Assembly: GCF_009379765.1 (NCBI RefSeq)
Contig: NZ_WHTD01000019.1
Coordinates: 1 to 64,000 of the forward strand
Source: Actinophytocola sp.
GTDB lineage: Bacteria; Actinomycetota; Actinomycetes; Mycobacteriales; Pseudonocardiaceae
Direction: 5' to 3'
DNA: 64,000 bases
Within the stretch, counting starts at the first letter, position 1; every line of letters starts with the position of its first letter. Below the pieces are notes generated by a model. That model searched no databases. It was not told the DNA's origin and saw nothing but the letters and a program-made list of their open reading frames with translations. This document shows, in pieces, positions 24,703-35,301 of this stretch. The position numbers and the translations under genes are program-made.

Positions 24703-27694
24703 ATGCACCTGTCCATCGACAAACCGTTCCGCCGTGCGCTGCCGGCGGCACTCGTCGTGCTGGCCACGGTCGGCGCCGGCCTCGTCATCGCGCCCGCGCG
24801 GGCGCACGCGGACGTCCCACCCCAGGAACCGGGCGTGACCCTGCGCGTGTTCGACGTGCAGGTCGGCCTGAACGAGATCTGCACCCTGAAACCCGGGCAG
24901 ACCCCCAACGTCGACAAGCTGATGCCGACGATCGACTGGACCACCACCGAGGACTTCGGCATCGGCGACTACTTCGTCTCCGAGGTCACCGGCAACATCA
25001 GCGTCGCGACCGCGGGCACCCACGACTTCCGGCTCACCAGCGACGACGGGTCTCGCCTGCGCATCGACGGCACCGTCGTGATCGACCACGACGGCCTGCA
25101 CTCGCCGACGTCCAAGGACGGCTCGGTCGCGCTGACCGAGGGCTACCACGCCCTGCGGATCGACCACTTCGACAACCAGGTCGACCAGCAGATCACGCTG
25201 GAATGGCGGCCGCCGGGCGCATCGGACTTCGTCGTGGTGCCGAGCTCCGTGCTGAGCACGGACGCGGGCGTCGTGCGGGTGACCGCGCCGGGGCGCAAGG
25301 AGTGCGAGGGCGTCACCGACACCCCGGGCGACGGCCTGCCGCTCACCGGCGTGCACCCGAACTACACCTTGACCAACCTGCGCCCCGACGGGTTCGAGCC
25401 ACAGGTGAGCGCGATGGACTGGCTGCCCGACGGCCGGCTGGCCATCGCCACGTGGGGCGGTACGGACAACGAGCTCGGCGAGGTCTACCTGCTGAGCAAC
25501 GTCACCGGCAGCACCGACCCGTCACAGGTGCTGGCGCAGCGGATCGCGAGCGGTCTCAAGGAACCGATGGGCATCAAGTACGTCGACGGCAAGCTGTACG
25601 TGTCGGAGAAGAACGGGCTCGTCGAGCTGAACGACACCAACGGCGACGGCGTGACCGACGACTACCGCACGATCGCCACCTGGCCCTTCGGCGGCAACTT
25701 CCACGAGTTCGCGTTCGGGCTCCTGTACCGGGACGGCTTCTTCTACCTCAACCTGTCCGTGGCCATCGACTACGGCGGCGCCACGACCGACCCGCAGCCC
25801 GCGCCGACCGCGGCACCACCGTCAAAGTCGACCGGAACACCGGCGCGGTGTCCTATGTGGCCGGTGGGCTGCGCACCCCGCACGGCATCGGGTGGGGTCC
25901 CGGCGGCGACGTCTTCGTCACCGACAACCAGGGCGGCTGGCTGCCGTCGTCGAAGCTGGTGCACATCAAGCAGGACCGGTTCTTCAACCACTACATGAAC
26001 CCGGACGGCCCGTTCGACTCCCAGCCGGTGACCCAGCCCGTGCTGTGGCTGCCGCAGAACGAGATCGCCAACTCGCCGAGCAACCCGGTCCTGCTGAGCG
26101 AGGGCGTCTTCGCCGGGCAGATGCTGTTCGGTGACGTGACCTACGGCGGCATCCAGCGGGCGTACCTGGAGCAAGTGAACGGCGAGTACCAGGGCGCGGT
26201 CTTCCGCATGACGCAAGGACTCGAGGCGGGGGTGAGCCGCATGAGCCTCGGGCCCGACGGCGCGATCTACACGGGCGGCATCGGCGCGGGCGGCAACTGG
26301 GGCCAGCCGGGCAAGCTCAGCCACGGCCTGCAGAAGCTGACCCCCAACGGCGCCAACACCTTCGACATCCTCGCGATGCGGGCGGTCCAGGGCGGCTTCG
26401 AGCTCGAGTACACCCAGCCGCTGTCGGCCGAGACCGCGCAGGACCTCGCGGCGAGGTACGAAGCCAGCCAGTGGCGCTACGTGCCCACCGCCGACTACGG
26501 CGGCCCGAAGGTCGACGAGCAGGCGCTGACCGTGACGTCCGCGTCCCTGTCCGCAGACCGCAAGAAGGTCACCCTCGCGCTGTCCGGTCTGCAACCGGGT
26601 CGCGTGGTCCACGTGCGGTCGCCGCGGCCGTTCGCGGCGGAGTCCGGTGAGTCGCTGTGGAGCACCGAGGCCTGGTACACGCTCAACTCCATGGTCGGCA
26701 ACACCGGACAGGCCACGGAGTACGAGGCGGAGACGGCCGGGCTGAGCGGCGGTGCCGCGGTCAACACCGACCACACCGGCTACTCGGGCACCGGCTTCGT
26801 GGACGGGTACTGGACCCAGGGTGCGACCACCACGTTCAACGTCAGCGCGCCGTCCGCCGGCACCTACAACGTCGGGCTCCGCTACTCCAACGGCCCGAAC
26901 CCGGTCGCCGGCACCAAGACGGTGAGCCTGTACGTCAACGGCACCAAGGTGCGGCAGCTGCCGCTGGCGAGCACCGGTGACTGGGAGACCTGGGCGACCC
27001 ACACGGAGGCCGTCGCGCTGGACGCCGGCTCGAACTCGGTGGCGTTCAGGTACGACAGCGGCGACGACGGCAACGTCAACCTCGACAAGATCACCGTCGG
27101 CTCGGGGCGCGGATCGTGCTGTTCGACGGGACGAACCTCCACGCCTGGGAGGCGCGCTCCGGCGGCGCGGCGACCTGGCCGGTGGCGGACGGCTCGATGG
27201 AGTCGCTCGGCGGCGACATCCGGACGAGGCAGAAGTTCGGCGACTTCCGGCTGCACGTCGAGTGGTACGAGCCCGAGTACCCGCCGGAGGTCACCGGGCA
27301 GGCCAGGGGCAACAGCGGCATCTTCCTGCAGGAGCGCTACGAGCTCCAGGTGCTCGAGTCGTTCGGTGACACCACTCCCGCGTCGAACGAGGCGGGCGCG
27401 ATCTACTCGAAGCGGGCGCCGGACAGCAACGCGGCGACGGCGTCCGGGACGTGGCAGACCTACGACGTCACGTTCCGCGCGGCTCGCTTCGACGCCGCCG
27501 GGAACAAGACCGCCAACGCTCGGGTGACAGTCGTCTGGAACGGCGTCGTCGTGCACGACGACGTGGAGATCGACGGCGGCACCGGCGACAGCCTGCCGGA
27601 GGACGCGGCACCGCAGTCGATCCGCCTGCAGGACCACGGCGATGCCGGCGCGAACCCGCGCTTCCGCACCATCTGGGTCGAGCCCTTGGCCTGA
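24703..27694 (+). pseudogene. Secreted PA14 / beta-propeller / CBM / DUF1080 protein, two frameshifts
   Basis: A GAGGAG site precedes the ATG. The encoded protein would be about 996 residues: a signal peptide (to ARAHA); a PA14-type sandwich (FRLTSDDGSRLRIDG near 115); a sugar-dehydrogenase-like beta-propeller (about 210-560, MDWLPDGRLAIATWGG, then NTGAVSYVAGGLRTPHGIG); a CBM6/35-type module (about 670-800, YEAETAGLSGGAA); and a C-terminal DUF1080/3-keto-glycoside-hydrolase-like domain (VLFDGTNLHAWEAR, GNSGIFLQERYELQVLES). The frame breaks once near 25805-25815 and once in GGGG at about 27102-27106. Each is repairable by one base, and every domain is otherwise well preserved, so sequencing error is as likely as real decay. 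Likely role: binding or cleavage of extracellular polysaccharide or keto-glycosides. Confidence 0.83.
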
Positions 27695-27740
27695 CCCGGC
27701 CCGACCAGGACGGGCTCGGCGACCATCCGGCCGCCGGGCC

Positions 27741-29531
27741 CTACCCGGTCGCCAGCACGTCCTCGAGCTCCGCCACGGCCGTGGTCAGCTCCTCGGCGAA
27801 GCGGTGCATCTGGTCGGCCACGTGCCGCGGGGTGCTCAGGTAGATGTTGAGCCCGTCGGGCAGCAGCACGTAGGCGACCCCGATGCACTGCGGGCTGGTG
27901 GAGCCGAAGCCGAAGTACTGGATGTTCGCCGACGGCGCGGAGCTGGTGCTCAGGTAGTCGTCGCGCATGACGAGCCAGCCGGGACTCTCGTAGAGCGCGA
28001 TCGGCTCGGTGGCGCCGGCCCGCTCGGCGATCAGCTGCAGCTCCCAGAGGTGCTGCTCGGGAGCGTCGCCGGCCTGGCACTCCTTCGCCAGGGCCACGTG
28101 CTTGGCCGCCGCGGCCCGGAAGGCGGCCGAGCGGGCGGCCCGGTCGGCGCTGTCGTCGTCCATTGTGGACACGAAGGTCAGCACCTCGGGGGTGACGACG
28201 CGCATCGCCTCCGTGCGGCCGTGCCGGTACTGGCGGGTGGCGATCGACTCGTAGGTGGCGCCGGTGAGTCCCTTCGCCCGCCGGTGGGCGAGCTGGTAGG
28301 CCATCTGCACGAACGCGTCCGGGGACATGCCGAGCTGCTTCGCCCTGCTCGCCCCGAAGTCCGCGAACGACACCGTCCGCGTCGCGGTGGCGTCGGCGTA
28401 CGCGGCGAACGACTCGCCGGCCTCCCGCGCGGTCCGGCCCAGCGTGGCGTCGAGGGTGAGCTCGATGCGTGTCGCGGTGGGCACCCCGGTCGCGGCGGGC
28501 GGGCCGGCGGGCGCCGTGTCGAGCTCTGCGGTCAGCATGATGTCGACGAAGCTGAGGATCGTGGTGCCGTCCAGACCGCAGTGCTCCACGTTGATCCCCG
28601 CGGTGCCGTCGGCGAACACGACCAGCGAGAAGGACTTGTCGAACCACCGGTTGCCGCTGTTGCCGTGCAGCAGCCCGTCGCAGGCCTGCTGGGTGTCCGC
28701 GGGCGAGACGTCCTCCAGGCACAGGCCGAACAACGCGGTCTCGAGCTCCTCGAATGCCGCCGCGTTGCCGGGGTCCGCGAGCAGGGTCTGCCTCGCGCCG
28801 GCCCACTCCGCCCTTGCCATCGTGGTGAGGTGCCCGGCGGCGGTGGCCGGGTCGGCCAGGACCTCGCCGGTCTTCATGATCGTGTGGAGCGCGGCGGCGA
28901 GGCTCTCGCGGTCGTAGGGCCGACCGTCCGGGTCGAGCACGTCCAGCCGGAACGGGGTGCCGCGGAAGAACACCACGAGGTGCCGGGCGGTCGAGGGCCC
29001 CGGCCACTCCTCGCTGTAGGGCGCCCGGACGGTGTCCTGCACGGCGCCGGGGATCCGGGTGGTGGAGAACAGGAACTTGTTCTGCACCATGGACAACGGC
29101 CGGCCGCGCTGGACGGCAGGCGGAACCGACTCGTCGTCAAGACGTAGCTTGTAGTCGACCGCCGCGGCCACGAGCGTGGCGGCCCGCTCCACCTGGTCCT
29201 GGCCGGAGTCGTGGAACAGGAAGAAGAAGTTGGCGTTGAGCGCGATCCGGTCCCGGCGGCCGAGGTAGCGGTAGGGCCAGAACTCGTCCAGCCAGCTGCC
29301 CACGTCGGGCCGCGCGTCGTAGCGTTCCAGGGCCGCCTGCAGCTCGTGGGCGGGGCTCTGCGGCGCGAGGAACGCCGCCACCGCGTCCTCGGTCCGCGCC
29401 CGCTGCGTCGCGGTGAGCAAGGGCGCGGACCATTCGAGGAACCGCCGGCAGGTGTCGGCCAGAGCGGGGACGGGCACCCGAGGGAGGTGCTCCTCGTTGC
29501 CGAAGGTGCGCGGGGACGGGTTGGGGTTCAC
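27741..29531 (-). CDS. Carnitine/choline-type O-acyltransferase
   Basis: A 596-residue cytosolic protein, close to the length of eukaryotic carnitine acetyltransferases. The layout is recognisable: LPRVPVPALADTCRRFLEW at the start, GRPLSMVQNKFLFSTTRIPG, the NRWFDKSFSLVVF segment, and the catalytic His in GINVEHCGLDG near residue 315. The C-terminus has the STS-like ATRQYRHGRTE and FGFGSTSPQCIGVAY. The family swaps acyl groups between CoA and the hydroxyl of carnitine, choline or a relative. The GTG overlaps the stop of the methyltransferase gene (GTGA), so the two are translationally coupled. Such enzymes are rare in bacteria. The actual acceptor is unknown. Confidence 0.85.
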   Translation of the reverse strand: MNPNPSPRTFGNEEHLPRVPVPALADTCRRFLEWSAPLLTATQRARTEDAVAAFLAPQSPAHELQAALERYDARPDVGSWLDEFWPYRYLGRRDRIALNANFFFLFHDSGQDQVERAATLVAAAVDYKLRLDDESVPPAVQRGRPLSMVQNKFLFSTTRIPGAVQDTVRAPYSEEWPGPSTARHLVVFFRGTPFRLDVLDPDGRPYDRESLAAALHTIMKTGEVLADPATAAGHLTTMARAEWAGARQTLLADPGNAAAFEELETALFGLCLEDVSPADTQQACDGLLHGNSGNRWFDKSFSLVVFADGTAGINVEHCGLDGTTILSFVDIMLTAELDTAPAGPPAATGVPTATRIELTLDATLGRTAREAGESFAAYADATATRTVSFADFGASRAKQLGMSPDAFVQMAYQLAHRRAKGLTGATYESIATRQYRHGRTEAMRVVTPEVLTFVSTMDDDSADRAARSAAFRAAAAKHVALAKECQAGDAPEQHLWELQLIAERAGATEPIALYESPGWLVMRDDYLSTSSAPSANIQYFGFGSTSPQCIGVAYVLLPDGLNIYLSTPRHVADQMHRFAEELTTAVAELEDVLATG

Positions 29532-30322
29532 GGTTGTCCTCGGGTCTCGACGGGCTCGGAAAAGTAGAGCTGGGCGCAGAGCCAGCCCTCGGTCTCCAGT
29601 TCGTGCGGTTCCACGCCGTTCGCGCGGAGGGCGTCCAGGATCTGCTCCTGCTCCCGCGGGTCGGCGAACCTGCGCTGCTTGACCATCCCGGCGACGCCGG
29701 TGGTGCGGTAGCCCAGCGCGGCGAGGCTCTCCGCGATCGGCTCGTAGGAGAACATCCGCAGCACGAAGTGCGCCATCGCGGGGCGCCGACCGTCCGGCAT
29801 GTCGGCGATCCGGGCGATGGTCCGCTCCGTGATGTAGCCGATGCACCCGGTCGAGACGACCAGGTCAACTCCGGCGAGCAGCGCGGCCTGGTGCTCGGTC
29901 GGGGCGTCCCGCTCCAGGTCCGCGGGAATCGCGTCGTCGATGAAACCGGCGGCGTGCGCGTACTCCAACGCGGGCGCCGAGGAGTCCAGCCCGATGAACC
30001 GGGCACCGCGGGACCGCCCGAGCGCCCGGTCGCGGTCGAGCAGCCCGGTGCGGTCGAGCCGGCCGGCTTCCTCGCCGGTGTAGTGGTCGTAGAGCTCGTC
30101 CATGGTCGCGTCGCACCGGTACAGCGCCGCGTTGACGCCGTAGGAGCAGCCGACGTCCAGCACGGTCGGCTGGGGGCGTTCCTCGATGAGCTTCGCGAAG
30201 TAGGGCTTCGCCAGCTGCGGCAGCTGATAGTCGAGCTCGCGCAGGGTGGCGAAGTAGGGGCGGGGATCGGGCTCGGTGTAGACGTGGTCGAGGGAGACCT
30301 TGCCGGTCGAGTCGAAGGGCAC
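29528..30322 (-). CDS. Class I SAM-dependent methyltransferase-like protein
   Basis: A 264-residue protein whose GTG follows AAGGAG at good spacing. Motif I is VLDVGCSYGVNAALY (about 54-68), with FIGLDSSAPALEYA as the second acidic strand and a post-motif DLVVSTGCIGYI. There is an unusual acidic insert between them (TMDELYDHYTGEEAGRLDR). The C-terminal third (FVLRMFSYEPIAESLAALGY) is typical of small-molecule methyltransferases. It sits between the oxygenase and the acyltransferase in one operon, so it probably N- or O-methylates the same metabolite. The substrate cannot be read from sequence. Confidence 0.8.
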   Translation of the reverse strand: MPFDSTGKVSLDHVYTEPDPRPYFATLRELDYQLPQLAKPYFAKLIEERPQPTVLDVGCSYGVNAALYRCDATMDELYDHYTGEEAGRLDRTGLLDRDRALGRSRGARFIGLDSSAPALEYAHAAGFIDDAIPADLERDAPTEHQAALLAGVDLVVSTGCIGYITERTIARIADMPDGRRPAMAHFVLRMFSYEPIAESLAALGYRTTGVAGMVKQRRFADPREQEQILDALRANGVEPHELETEGWLCAQLYFSEPVETRGQP

Positions 30323-30337
30323 TGGTCAGCTCCTTGC

Positions 30338-31210
30338 CTAGTCGAGCAAGCTGTCGCCGCGGACGGCTTCCGCGGCGAGATGCTCGGACAGGACCCGGCC
30401 GAAGAGCTGCCTGGTCCGCTCGGCGCTGCCGATCACGCCGGGCCGCTGACTGTAGGCGAAGATCGCCGTGTGCCGGGCCCGGCCGCCGCGCACGGTGCTG
30501 ACCCGGTGCAGCGCGAGGCGGCCGCGGAACAGCTGCAGGTCGCCCGGGCGCAGGGTGAGCCTGCGGACGAGGTGCTCGCCGTTGCCCGCCAGCACGGCGG
30601 CGACGTCGTCGACGTTCTCCTCGCCGGCGGAGCGGATGTTCGGGCAGTACTCGAAGACGCCGTCGCGGTCGGCCCGCCGGGTGAGCATGCTGACGGTGAA
30701 CTCGTTGGTGTCGAAGTGCCACGGGTGCGCCCTGCCCGGCGCGATCACGTTGAGGCACAGGCCCGACAGCGGGTCGGCGAGCTCGTACAGCCCGGGCAGC
30801 GCGAAGCAGTCGGCGACGAAGCGCTGGAACACCGGGCTGGTGTAGAGCTGGTGGATCACCGAGGACACCGGGATGTGGTCGCGGGCCACGAAGGCGTTGC
30901 CGCGTTCCATGACGGTGCGGCCGGGATGGCCGTCCGGCAGCGGCGCGTCGATGGCGATGTTGTAGGCGTTGACCAGCTCGACCCGGCCGTGTGCCAGCGG
31001 GGCGATCTCGGCGCACTCCCGTTCGAGCGCGTCCAGGAGAGACGGCCGGACGAAGTCGGCAAGGACACAGCAGCCGATGTCGTCCAGCTCCGCCCTCGCG
31101 CGGGCGACGACGGCCCGCCAGGCCGGCCCGTCGGGATCGGACAGGGGGTAGCGGTCGGTGTCGACCACCTCATCCACGGACACGGCTCCCGAGATGCTCA
31201 TGGAAATCAT
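30338..31210 (-). CDS. 2OG-Fe(II) oxygenase of the HalD/BesD (ArpA-like) type
   Basis: A 290-residue protein with the double-stranded beta-helix iron site: His165-Phe-Asp167 in HPWHFDTNEFTVSML, the distal His235 in LALHRVSTVRG, and downstream Arg residues (RARHTAIFAYS) suited to bind 2-oxoglutarate. The surrounding text (GLCLNVIAPGRAHPWHFD, DGVFEYCPNIRS, LRPGDLQLFRGRLALH) resembles the HalD/BesD group of free-amino-acid oxygenases. In halogenases of this group the Asp is replaced by Gly to make room for chloride. Here Asp is present, so hydroxylation is predicted. It is the first gene of the operon. Neither ATG at 31210 nor the one at 31201 has a ribosome site, so the start is uncertain. Confidence 0.82.
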   Translation of the reverse strand: MISMSISGAVSVDEVVDTDRYPLSDPDGPAWRAVVARARAELDDIGCCVLADFVRPSLLDALERECAEIAPLAHGRVELVNAYNIAIDAPLPDGHPGRTVMERGNAFVARDHIPVSSVIHQLYTSPVFQRFVADCFALPGLYELADPLSGLCLNVIAPGRAHPWHFDTNEFTVSMLTRRADRDGVFEYCPNIRSAGEENVDDVAAVLAGNGEHLVRRLTLRPGDLQLFRGRLALHRVSTVRGGRARHTAIFAYSQRPGVIGSAERTRQLFGRVLSEHLAAEAVRGDSLLD

Positions 31211-31414
31211 GGGTACAGCACGAGATCGTGGCACAACAGGACCAGCGGTCGTTGGTGACACACCCCACACACTCGGTAGCCGCCGAGGACTTCACCAGTT
31301 GCGGGTGATGGGTGGGGCCAGTTGGAGGACGACCGTGCGAGCGGTGCCAGCGATCCGGCTGACCGCACCGGCCACGCGACTGGCCGGCACGAAGCCGGCG
31401 GAGGAGGTGCGCCG

Positions 31415-31639
31415 GTGCCGCAACAGCGATACGAGTTTCGGGTGAGCGGCAGGCTTTCCGAGCGCGCGCAACACGCGGTCGGGAACTTCAGCGAGGTGCG
31501 GATCGTGCCGGACCCGCCGGAGACGATCATCTACGGTGCGGTCACCGACCAGGCCCACCTGCACGGGATCCTGGCGTTCCTGGAGAAGCTCGGGCTGCAG
31601 ATCGTGTCCGTGCACCAGCTGCCCGACGAGACCGAGTGA
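31415..31639 (+). CDS. Small protein of unknown function
   Basis: 74 residues from a GTG preceded by GGAGGAGG; a longer in-frame start at 31322 has no such site. It reads QRYEFRVSGRLSERAQHAVG, then EVRIVPDPPETIIYGAVTDQ and LHGILAFLEKLGLQIVSVHQ. It is predicted as a compact alpha/beta fold with no membrane segment or signal. I recognise the type from actinomycete genomes as a conserved hypothetical but cannot give a function. It is divergent from the oxygenase operon, with about 200 bases between them. Confidence 0.7.
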   Translation: MPQQRYEFRVSGRLSERAQHAVGNFSEVRIVPDPPETIIYGAVTDQAHLHGILAFLEKLGLQIVSVHQLPDETE

Positions 31640-31655
31640 CGGCACCCGGTGTCGG

Positions 31656-31771
31656 TTTGGCTCGCTTCGCTCGCTGGTGAGTGGGCCTGTTTCCGGTGTC
31701 TTCCCTCCTGTGCTGCTCACTCACTCGTTCCTCGCTCGCTCCGCTGCTCGTCAGTCCAGACACCGGCGGCC
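31656..31771. repeat. Second copy of a dispersed GC-rich repeat element
   Basis: Segments shared with the element at 3955-4100 are TTGGCTCGCTTCGCTCGCTG with GTGAGTGGGCC (31656-31687; compare 4068-4098), CTCGCTCCGCTGCTCGTCAG plus TCC (31735-31757; compare 3958-3980), and CCAGACACCGGCGGCC (31756-31771; compare 4045-4060). The blocks are in a different order in the two copies, and the 22-bp tandem units are absent here. Confidence 0.7.
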
Positions 31772-32616: not shown

Positions 32617-33369
32617 ATGACTGCTGGGGATCTCTCCGGAAGACGTGCGCTGGTCACCGGAGCGGCCAGCGGAATCGGCCGGGCCTGCGCCACGCGGCTC
32701 GCCGCCGCCGGGGTGAAGGTGGTGGCCGCGGACCTGGACGCCGGCGCGGTCCAGCGGGTGGCCGCGGAGATCGACGCGCAACCGGTGGTCGTCGACCTCT
32801 CCGATCTCGACTCCGTCGACCGGCTCGACCTCGACGTCGACATCGTCGTCAACAACGCCGGGCTGCAACACGTCGCGGCGATCGAGGAGTTCCCGCCGGA
32901 GCGGTTCTCCTACATCCTGCGGGTGATGCTGGAGGCCCCGTTCCGGATCGTGCGGGGCGCCCTGCCGCACATGTACGCCCAGGGCTGGGGCCGGGTGGTC
33001 AACATCTCCAGCGTGCACGGGCTGGTCGCCTCGCCGTTCAAGGTCGCTTACGTGGCCGCCAAGCACGGGCTCGAAGGGCTGTCCAAGGTGATCGCGCTCG
33101 AAGGGGCCGAGCACGGCGTCACGTCCAACTGTGTCAACCCTTCCTACGTGCGGACGCCGCTCGTGGAGAACCAGATCGCCGCGCAGGCCGAGGTCCTCGG
33201 CATGGAGCCGGGCCAGGTCGTCGACGAGGTGATGCTCGGGCCCGCGGCGGTGAAGCGGCTGATCGAGCCGGCGGAGGTCGCGTCGCTCGTGGTGTACCTC
33301 TGCGGCGCCGACACCTCCGGCGTCACCGGGGCGTCCATGCGGATGGACGGCGGCTGGACCGCCCGCTGA
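32617..33369 (+). CDS. 3-hydroxybutyrate dehydrogenase-type SDR
   Basis: A 250-residue short-chain dehydrogenase. The cofactor motif TGAASGIG starts at residue 14, with Asp39 after strand 2 favouring NAD+. NNAG is at 79-82, and the catalytic Ser131/132, Tyr145 and Lys149 are in place (SSVHGLVASPFKVAYVAAKH). NNAGLQHVAAIEEFP and CVNPSYVRTPLVENQIAAQA are strongly characteristic of D-3-hydroxybutyrate dehydrogenases, which oxidise 3-hydroxybutyrate to acetoacetate. It lies upstream of the GAF-PucR regulator and the second LIV importer on the same strand, so the importer may bring in a short hydroxy acid or related compound. Confidence 0.9.
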   Translation: MTAGDLSGRRALVTGAASGIGRACATRLAAAGVKVVAADLDAGAVQRVAAEIDAQPVVVDLSDLDSVDRLDLDVDIVVNNAGLQHVAAIEEFPPERFSYILRVMLEAPFRIVRGALPHMYAQGWGRVVNISSVHGLVASPFKVAYVAAKHGLEGLSKVIALEGAEHGVTSNCVNPSYVRTPLVENQIAAQAEVLGMEPGQVVDEVMLGPAAVKRLIEPAEVASLVVYLCGADTSGVTGASMRMDGGWTAR

Positions 33370-33408
33370 CGCATCACCGGGCGAGCCGAAGAACCGGGGC
33401 GAGGGGCT

Positions 33409-35301
33409 ATGGGAACCATCGGCGGCATGTTCTGGAACGACTTTCTCCGGCTGCTCACCCGGGACGCCGCCGCGGTCGAGTTCGAGGGCCCGTTGCTCGC
33501 GGCCCGGTCGGGCGGCGCGCCGCCGGAGGTCGTGGCGGAGCTAGCGGAGGGCAAGCGGCTCGCCCTCCAGGTCCGCGAGGTGCTCGCCAGCCGCCGGCGC
33601 AGGGAAGGCCAGCTGACCGCGTTGTTCGAGACCGCGGGCGACCTCGCGCGGCTCACCGACCTGGACTCGGTCCTCTATGCGATCGTTCGCCGGGCCCGCC
33701 AGCTGCTCGGCACCGATGTCGCCTACCTGACGATGCACGACACCGAGCGCGGCGACACCTACATGAAGGTCACCGACGGCTCCACCTCAGCCGCCTTCCA
33801 GAAGCTGCGGCTCGGGTTCGGCGAGGGGCTCGGTGGGCTCGTCGCGCAGACCGGGATGCCCTACGTCACCGCCAACTACACGACCGATCCCCAGTTCCGG
33901 CACACCGGCGGGATCGACTCGGCCGTCGACGAGGAGGGGTTGGCGTCGATCCTCGGTGTCCCGCTGCAGATCGGCCAGCGGGTGATCGGCGTGCTGTTCG
34001 CCGCGAACCGCACCGAGCGCCCGTTCACCAGGGAGGCGGTCGCGTTGCTGGGCTCGCTCGGCGCGCACGCCGCGGTGGCGATCGACCAGACCCGGCTGCT
34101 GGATGAGACCAGGGTCGCGCTCACCGAGCTGAACAACGCCAACCACCTGCTCCAGGCGCACAGCGCGGCGGTCGAACGCGCGGCGGCCGCCCACGACAAG
34201 ATGGCGCAGCTGGTGCTGACCGGCGGCGGGGTCGCCGACGTCGCGGTCGCGACCACCGAGGTGATCGGCGGGTCCCTGCTGGTGCTCGACGAGCAGGACC
34301 GCGAGCTCGCCCGGGTCGGGGAGCCCGGCCGGGTCGAGGCGAAGAAGCTGGCCGGGGCGGTCGCCGCGTCGCGGGCGACGGGCCGCGCCGTCCGGGAGTC
34401 CGGGCACTGGCTCGCGGCGGTCTCCGCGGGCACCGAGCACCTCGGTGCCTTGGTGCTCAGCGGAATGCCGGACCTCGAGGAGCCCGATCTGCGCATCCTC
34501 GAGCGCGCCGCGGTCGTCACCGCCCTGCTGCTGCTCGCCCGGCGGTCCGAGGCCGAGGTCGAGAGCCGGGTGCGCGGCGAGCTCCTCGACGACCTGCTGC
34601 GCCGCCGCGACCTCGACCCGGCCGTGCTCGTGGCGCGGGCCCGGCGGCTCGGCGCCGACCTCGACGTGCCGTACTCGGTGTTCGTCGCCGACATCGGCAG
34701 CGCCGACCGCCAGCGGGCCACGTTCGCGGCGAACCACCTGGCCCGCACCAGGTACGGCCTCAGCGGAACCTTCGACGGCGAGCTGGTCCTGCTGCTGCCC
34801 ACCGAGGAGCCGGGCCCGGTCGCCGGCACCCTCGTCCGCGAGCTGGGCTCGACCCTGTCCGCGGAGGTGACGGTAGGCGGCGCGGGCCCGGCGCGGGGCG
34901 CCCGCGACGTCGGGCCGACCCATCGCGAGGCGCAACGCTGCCTGGGCGCGCTGCGCACGCTCGGCCGGACCGGCGAGGGGGCCAGCTCGGCCGAGGTCGG
35001 CTTCGTCGGCCTGGTCCTGAGCGACCAGCCGGACGTGGCCGGGTTCGTCGAGTCGGCGCTCGGCCCGATCCTGGACTACGACGAGCGGCGGGGGACCGAG
35101 CTGGTGGGCACCCTGGAGACCTACTTCTCCCGCGGTGGCAACCTCACCCGGACCAAGGAGGCCCTGCACGTCCACGTCAACACCGTCACCCAGCGACTGG
35201 ACCGGATCGCGCAGCTGATCGGCTCGAACTGGCAGTCCCCGGAGCGGGAGCTGGAGCTCCAGCTGGCGCTGCGGCTGCACCGGGTGCGGGGTGGCCGATG
35301 A
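33409..35301 (+). CDS. GAF-domain PucR-family regulator
   Basis: A 630-residue soluble regulator. The N-terminal linker is followed by a GAF domain (about 68-235: LDSVLYAIVRRARQLLGTDV and LGVPLQIGQRVIGVLFAANR), then a second sensor region. The C-terminal PucR HTH_30 domain (about 545-620) is marked by GGNLTRTKEALHVHVNTVTQ. A GAGGGG site precedes the ATG. It lies directly upstream of the second LIV operon in the same direction. A candidate imperfect palindrome (ATGTGTGG/CCCACAT, 35320-35338) lies in the 100-base gap. It probably controls the importer and the dehydrogenase. Confidence 0.9.
   Translation: MGTIGGMFWNDFLRLLTRDAAAVEFEGPLLAARSGGAPPEVVAELAEGKRLALQVREVLASRRRREGQLTALFETAGDLARLTDLDSVLYAIVRRARQLLGTDVAYLTMHDTERGDTYMKVTDGSTSAAFQKLRLGFGEGLGGLVAQTGMPYVTANYTTDPQFRHTGGIDSAVDEEGLASILGVPLQIGQRVIGVLFAANRTERPFTREAVALLGSLGAHAAVAIDQTRLLDETRVALTELNNANHLLQAHSAAVERAAAAHDKMAQLVLTGGGVADVAVATTEVIGGSLLVLDEQDRELARVGEPGRVEAKKLAGAVAASRATGRAVRESGHWLAAVSAGTEHLGALVLSGMPDLEEPDLRILERAAVVTALLLLARRSEAEVESRVRGELLDDLLRRRDLDPAVLVARARRLGADLDVPYSVFVADIGSADRQRATFAANHLARTRYGLSGTFDGELVLLLPTEEPGPVAGTLVRELGSTLSAEVTVGGAGPARGARDVGPTHREAQRCLGALRTLGRTGEGASSAEVGFVGLVLSDQPDVAGFVESALGPILDYDERRGTELVGTLETYFSRGGNLTRTKEALHVHVNTVTQRLDRIAQLIGSNWQSPERELELQLALRLHRVRGGR

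Follow-up and report, generated by a model that had tools for sequence, protein, structure and literature searches.

What could an oxygenase, a methyltransferase, and a carnitine-type acyltransferase make together in an actinomycete? The question is raised by a three-gene locus in a 64,000-nucleotide (nt) stretch of Actinophytocola sp. DNA (assembly GCF_009379765.1, contig NZ_WHTD01000019.1, positions 1 to 64,000; here called the window), which is part of an 8.36-Mb genome. The genes lie on the minus strand from 31210 to 27741, in the order OX-MT-AT:

30338..31210, minus strand: OX, Fe(II)/2-oxoglutarate oxygenase of the HalD/BesD superfamily, 290 amino acids (aa), first gene
29528..30322, minus strand: MT, class I S-adenosylmethionine (SAM)-dependent methyltransferase without an assigned family, 264 aa, second gene
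27741..29531, minus strand: AT, choline/carnitine O-acyltransferase, 596 aa, third gene

An initial annotation, made from the sequence alone, had described genes on one strand with a 15-base gap and a GTGA overlap. The open reading frame (ORF) coordinates bear this out: 15 nt separate OX from MT, and the stop codon of MT overlaps the start of AT by 4 nt (GTGA). The ATG start of OX sits within a longer GTG ORF extending to 31270. A scan of 27400-31700 for sigma-70 promoters and terminators found none. Below we describe the conservation of the three genes and propose that they rather probably constitute a self-contained pathway to an O-acylated hydroxy-betaine, for which we infer the substrate class, the order of steps, the acyl length, and the product.

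OX, MT, and AT form a conserved cassette

Among 100 genomes of relatives, that of the window included, AT was present in 27 (the window's genome counted). All three genes were found together in 21 of the 26 other AT-bearing relatives (22 of 27 with the window). In three of the 26, OX and AT were present without an adjacent MT (G029, G035, and G054), AT was alone in G044, and AT and MT without OX were found in G076. MT was absent from G029 and G054; G035 holds a strong MT elsewhere, so that all three genes are present somewhere in 23 of the 27 AT genomes. Strong OX matches (E<=1e-140) were detected in 25 and strong MT matches (E<=1e-100) in 24 of the 100 relatives, and every one of them was in an AT genome. 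Among the relatives without AT, weaker MT relatives were detected in four more genomes, and OX gave a marginal match in one.

The same pattern was seen at larger distance. PF00755, the Pfam family of AT, was detected in 5 of 296 sampled genomes of the phylum, three of which contain the OX-MT-AT cassette. Strong AT, OX, and MT matches coincided in the same three genomes, and the genes are adjacent in G329. In addition, 406 encoded AT relatives were detected by scanning named genomes, and the best 80 of these were used as named loci. At 75 of these 80 actinomycete loci, OX, MT, and AT have the same order and strand, and the other five contain OX and AT; three of the corresponding genomes lack MT altogether, a fourth encodes a strong MT at another site, and the fifth a distant one. 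MT and AT are fused to one ORF in 4 of the 80 loci (Streptomyces specialis, two Frankia, and Gandjariella). The pairwise protein distances of OX, MT, and AT are correlated (r 0.86-0.90 in 69 of the 80 named loci, the rest being fused, without MT, or outside the length limits). A repeated origin of the fusion or of MT loss was not shown from the AT tree, in which well-supported branches require at least one change for the fusion and at least two for MT absence. In this tree, the window's sequence clusters with three Actinophytocola (Pseudonocardiaceae) sequences. Cassette carriers include species of Amycolatopsis, Actinomadura, Nocardia, Frankia, and Streptomyces, and no AT match was found among 72,556 plasmid records.

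OX, MT, and AT are a real conserved cassette. Its co-occurrence beyond this lineage was the check that the initial annotation had proposed, with lack of conservation as the outcome that would speak against a joint pathway; the trio was conserved in the relatives and in the named loci alike. A larger gene cluster was considered and set aside, since other than the trio no gene family recurred in more than 5 of the 27 loci (about 8-26 kb each; rough gene calls made with a simple script based on GC content at third codon positions, GC3).

AT is a PF00755 enzyme with a changed acceptor site

AT matches PF00755 (Carn_acyltransf) over its full length (E 9.5e-159; 530 bits, cut-off 22.3). Its PDB matches are CPT2, CrAT, CrOT, and ChAT (E 4e-66 to 2e-55), with CPT2 and CrAT nearest by score. 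The full-length match together with the catalytic His places AT in this family. Two positions of AT are central to what follows:

28581..28583, minus strand: AT His317, catalytic His position, aligned to the EH of CrAT/CPT2; His in 81/81 sequences
28053..28055, minus strand: AT Gln493, position of the carnitine-carboxylate Arg; Gln in 81/81 sequences

In the AT-CrAT alignment, from which the CrAT numbering was taken, His317, Asp321, Tyr427, Thr440, Ser528, and Ser530 of AT correspond to CrAT residues 343, 347, 452, 465, 552, and 554 and are invariant in the 81 sequences. Likewise invariant are Gln493 in place of CrAT Arg518 and Phe540 in place of CrAT Met564. The His317/Asp321 stretch and the Gln493 stretch (APEQHLWE) served as search patterns for the named AT loci, so their invariance there is biased; both are also invariant in a 24-row AT alignment (A3) whose rows were found without the patterns. 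The most distant A3 row (G076, 49% identical) has Trp at the Met564 position.

CrAT Arg518 is, as we take it, the residue that binds the carnitine carboxylate. CrAT and CPT2 have Arg at the Gln493 position, and so does a distantly related PF00755 protein of actinobacterial origin (28% identity); since this distant protein keeps the Arg, Gln493 looks like a mark of the cassette. Besides the cassette AT, a second, distant kind of actinobacterial carnitine/choline acyltransferase, keeping the carnitine-site Arg, is encoded at L219:9004-10716.

We rejected the assignment of AT as a carnitine acyltransferase proper, because Gln493 replaces the Arg in 81/81 sequences (a count biased by the search pattern, although the Gln is also invariant in A3). 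Choline acetyltransferase has Val and Asn at the CrAT Thr465 and Arg518 positions, and this assignment was rejected because AT has Thr440 and Gln493 there. The Gln in place of Arg indicates that the acceptor of AT is probably not carnitine itself. Finally, Phe540 lies at the CrAT Met564 position, presumably the acyl-length position, which suggests that AT transfers short acyl groups.

OX is a HalD-superfamily hydroxylase with an altered amine pocket

OX matches the Pfam family HalD (PF23169; E 1.3e-11, 44.8 bits, curated cut-off 26). An AlphaFold2 model of OX (mean predicted local distance difference test score, pLDDT, 89) was best matched in fold by HalB, HalA, HalD, BesD, and the lysine hydroxylase Hydrox (7JSD), with Z 19.6-20.5; the next other fold was Tpa1 (16.2), absence from the match lists of OX and MT not excluding a family. 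The score above the Pfam cut-off and the same predicted fold place OX in the HalD/BesD superfamily. Its metal site was located by alignment:

30710..30718, minus strand: OX H165-F-D167, HxD metal-binding motif, from the alignment to HalB/HalD

H165-x-D167 and H235 make up a hydroxylase-type metal site, invariant in sets of 22 and 38 sequences. The metal ligands of Hydrox are likewise HxD...H (PMC13244439). OX was rejected as a halogenase because HxD is present where halogenases have HxG.

In BesD, the lysine amino group forms salt bridges with E123, D143, and D239, and the lysine carboxylate is held by R77, H137, and W241 (PMC13244439). In an OX-BesD alignment that is weak (E 0.007-0.018) but anchored by the HxxHx[DG] motif, L148 takes the place of E123, T168 that of D143, and H162 that of H137, with D239 unmapped. 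All members of the cassette family have H162, while none of 18 OX relatives outside the cassette has His at this position or an acid at the L148 or T168 positions. By this alignment, OX does not show the residue set of a free-lysine enzyme: two of the three BesD amine acids are replaced and the His is kept. As judged from these residues, OX is a HalD-superfamily hydroxylase with a predicted amine pocket unlike that of BesD.

An aromatic cage formed by F251 and Y253 of OX was also considered. It was dropped because F251 corresponds, by our count, to BesD N222, which contacts succinate (PMC13244439).

The initial annotation had read OX as a HalD/BesD-like enzyme acting on free amino acids. The fold and, through the HxD motif, hydroxylation hold; there is no support for a free amino acid bound in the BesD manner, since the equivalents of E123 and D143 are absent.

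MT is a class I methyltransferase with scattered distant relatives

MT had no Pfam match at E 0.001, and 19 of 21 members of the MT family match Methyltransf_12 weakly (best E 4e-5). The AlphaFold2 model (pLDDT 90) has a class I methyltransferase fold (best Z 12.6) with no distinct closest family. The predicted fold and the conserved columns of motif I identify MT as a class I SAM methyltransferase:

30137..30163, minus strand: MT VLDVGCSYG, which we take to be SAM-binding motif I; conserved columns D56, S60, Y61, and G62

Among its fold matches are N-, C-, O-, and S-methyltransferases, none of them clearly ahead of the others.

Distant MT relatives occur in other families of the phylum, with up to three per genome, and also on plasmids, of rhizobia and Streptomyces among others. 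We inspected 25 MT loci outside the cassette, comprising 19 places from the 296-genome phylum sample and 6 of 23 plasmid records. An OsmF-type binding protein was encoded in five of them and a GbcA-like oxygenase in three (E 6e-118 to 4e-125, below the curated cut-off); an asparagine-synthase gene was found in 10 and a nitrilase-like gene in seven. These counts are not independent, because most positive loci come from one family.

In another actinobacterial family, MT relatives lie in an island with asparagine-synthase and nitrilase-like genes (L080, L086, L088, L089, L093, L094, and L096). Some of these islands also contain the OsmF-type transporter or the GbcA-like oxygenase.

Betaine-type genes adjoin two cassettes and some OX relatives

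In two cassette genomes, G004 (Actinophytocola; also named locus L110) and G013 (another genus), a four-gene ABC operon lies just past AT on the opposite strand. The G004 operon encodes OsmF-, ProW-, and ProV-like proteins, all below curated cut-offs. The G013 operon encodes an OsmF-like binding protein, also below its cut-off, and its other genes cluster with those of G004. PF04069 has 129 matches in the 27 AT genomes. The chance that two of them would lie within 1 kb of AT is about 0.001 or less, a rough estimate for an arrangement noticed post hoc.

The 18 OX loci outside the cassette consisted of 7 picked from 92 plasmid records and 11 from genomes; a second Caballeronia plasmid locus was left out. 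A DddP-like M24 gene adjoins the OX relative in 5 of the 18, all five being among the seven loci with about 40% identity or more. Two of the M24 genes were tested and matched the model of the dimethylsulfoniopropionate (DMSP) lyase DddP (E 2e-98 and 5e-71), though neither reached its 600-bit equivalog cut-off. The best PDB matches of the tested proteins were 4b28 and 4rzy/4s00/4s01, which we take to be DddP structures. The Caballeronia locus also encodes a ProX-like binding protein, a permease, and an ATPase. An MttB-family gene was found in 3 of the 18 loci, two of them near-identical; the third also contains a GbcA-like Rieske gene (1 of 18). MT was looked for in 12 of these OX loci, and none was found.

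An OX-like oxygenase gene beside a DddP-like M24 gene was observed at L202:7941-13104, L203:7956-10193, L209, L210, and L212, with a ProX-type transporter in Caballeronia. This arrangement looks like an uncharacterized cluster for betaine or sulfonium degradation, present in Pseudomonadota and Actinomycetota.

The betaine that the initial annotation had offered as an example thus gains support from context, namely by the neighbors of some OX and MT relatives and by the betaine-type ABC operons beside two cassettes.

A proposed pathway and its alternatives

In the pathway that we propose, MT would turn a small amino acid, or a zwitterion related to one, into a betaine by methylating its amine; a sulfonium analogue is also possible. 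OX would then hydroxylate a carbon of the betaine with O2 and 2-oxoglutarate, and AT would esterify the new hydroxyl from a short acyl-coenzyme A (acyl-CoA), probably the acetyl or propionyl form. The product would be acylcarnitine-like, yet not acylcarnitine itself. Genomes without MT would import the betaine or make it otherwise. That methylation precedes hydroxylation, i.e., that OX acts on a preformed betaine, is suggested by the context, because several OX relatives have betaine genes but no MT beside them and some genomes that lack MT encode an OX-AT pair. The route of the initial annotation, which ran from hydroxylation through methylation to esterification, is therefore retained in its unit of three genes and revised in its order.

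Several observations weigh against this proposal. Gln493 leaves undecided whether the acceptor has a carboxylate, and the methyl-accepting atom (N, S, O, or C) is not readable from the MT fold. In OX, the acid E170, two residues past T168, is kept in the cassette family, with Asp or Glu there in many relatives, so that an amine could still meet an acid; the third BesD amine acid, D239, was not mapped. The betaine context is sparse as well. A betaine-type binding protein was found in the fetched stretch near 3 of 107 cassette loci, two of them from the same genome. Of the 25 MT loci, 17 have neither betaine marker and 12 no marker at all, and 10 of the 18 OX loci have none of the marker genes searched for. 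The OX relatives of Pantoea and Enterobacter that were looked at sit in other contexts, and of the 92 plasmid records that contain an OX relative, 70 are from Pantoea.

These points bear on the alternatives. OX could hydroxylate a free amino acid, as BesD and Hydrox do, before MT permethylates it and AT esterifies the hydroxyl. The closeness of OX in fold to HalB, HalA, HalD, and Hydrox is in line with this route, as are the gene order OX-MT-AT, the conserved H162 at the position of the carboxylate-binding His of BesD, and E170 near the lost acid. We nevertheless consider it unlikely, because L148 and T168 stand in OX where BesD has its amine-bridging E123 and D143 (PMC13244439), and because several OX relatives outside the cassette adjoin betaine genes and none of the 12 loci tested contains MT. 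Rather less likely is that the trio tailors a specialized metabolite other than a betaine, for example by methylating a hydroxylated scaffold at O or C before acylating it. The missing family assignment of MT, its fold matches to C- and O-methyltransferases, and the patchy distribution of the cassette would fit such a role; however, no scaffold-building or other neighbor gene recurs around the cassette in our rough gene calls, and carnitine or choline is the substrate of those AT relatives whose structures are solved.

De novo carnitine synthesis, with MT converting gamma-aminobutyric acid to gamma-butyrobetaine, OX forming carnitine, and AT acylating it, could account for the betaine genes near some OX and MT relatives, for the invariant carnitine-site residues Tyr427 and Thr440, and for the proximity of AT to CPT2 and CrAT by score. 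We regard it as improbable, since the Arg that binds the carnitine carboxylate in CrAT and CPT2 is Gln in 81/81 cassette ATs, while the distant actinobacterial PF00755 protein keeps it. Least probable by our estimate, and very much so, is that AT uses carnitine or choline from the medium and that OX and MT act on unrelated substrates. The solitary AT of G044, the AT-MT pair of G076, and the missing MT of G029 and G054 would suit such independence, but all strong OX and MT matches in the 100 relatives are in AT genomes, MT and AT are fused in 4 of 80 named loci, and Gln493 also argues against it.

Genes on either side of the cassette

Two neighboring regions of the window were noted. At 24703-27694, Pfam domains CBM35/CBM6 and 3-keto-disaccharide hydrolase mark a probable multidomain gene whose parts seem to fall in three reading frames, pointing to frameshifts either in the gene itself or in the assembly. 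At 32617-35301, a GAF/PucR-type regulator gene comes after a gene that matches models of 3-hydroxybutyrate dehydrogenase; the two are perhaps a regulator-target pair.

Relation to known systems and significance

AT resembles the eukaryotic PF00755 enzymes CrAT, CPT2, CrOT, and ChAT in its full-length match, the catalytic His, the equivalents of Tyr452 and Thr465, and the STS motif. It differs from them in the Gln at the position of the carnitine-carboxylate Arg, in the Phe at the acyl-length position, and in its place in a bacterial operon beside MT and OX. The HalD/BesD enzymes and Hydrox have the fold closest to that of OX (Z about 20) and share the Pfam family HalD, but OX is 13-19% identical to them over the aligned structures. 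Unlike BesD, OX is without two of the three acids for the lysine amine, and its partners are MT and AT.

In carnitine biosynthesis, an N-methylated zwitterion is hydroxylated by 2-oxoglutarate-dependent enzymes (the trimethyllysine and gamma-butyrobetaine hydroxylases), and the product is esterified from acyl-CoA. This biosynthesis plus acylation shares the step logic proposed for the cassette. Its hydroxylases, however, presumably belong to an oxygenase family different from that of OX, and the cassette has a dedicated free-standing MT and an AT without the carnitine Arg. Homologues of the DMSP lyase DddP, the glycine betaine monooxygenase GbcA, and MttB methyltransferases adjoin some OX or MT relatives. 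They are not members of the cassette, which looks biosynthetic, and the matches tested were all below the curated equivalog cut-offs.

The enzyme kinds themselves are already known; what appears to be new is their combination, the change in the acceptor site of AT, and a HalD oxygenase branch that seems to act on betaines. We found no description of these three in the open-access literature, and no paper there on the role of carnitine/choline-type acyltransferases in this phylum. We consider it an evenly balanced question whether the cassette is, as a whole, an undescribed and widespread actinomycete pathway in which MT, a betaine-acting branch of the HalD oxygenases, and AT would yield an acylated hydroxy-betaine, with an acceptor that is neither carnitine nor choline.

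The cassette ties a PF00755 enzyme, rare in the phylum, to its own hydroxylase and methyltransferase, so that the question can be tested through three genes and one product. If the proposal is true, the range of the HalD oxygenases would widen from free amino acids to include betaines, and a new PF00755 branch would have its acceptor. It would also point to small charged esters as a compound class in Amycolatopsis, Actinomadura, Nocardia, Frankia, and Streptomyces species; built from primary metabolites, these would be the bacterial equivalent of acylcarnitine or acetylcholine chemistry.

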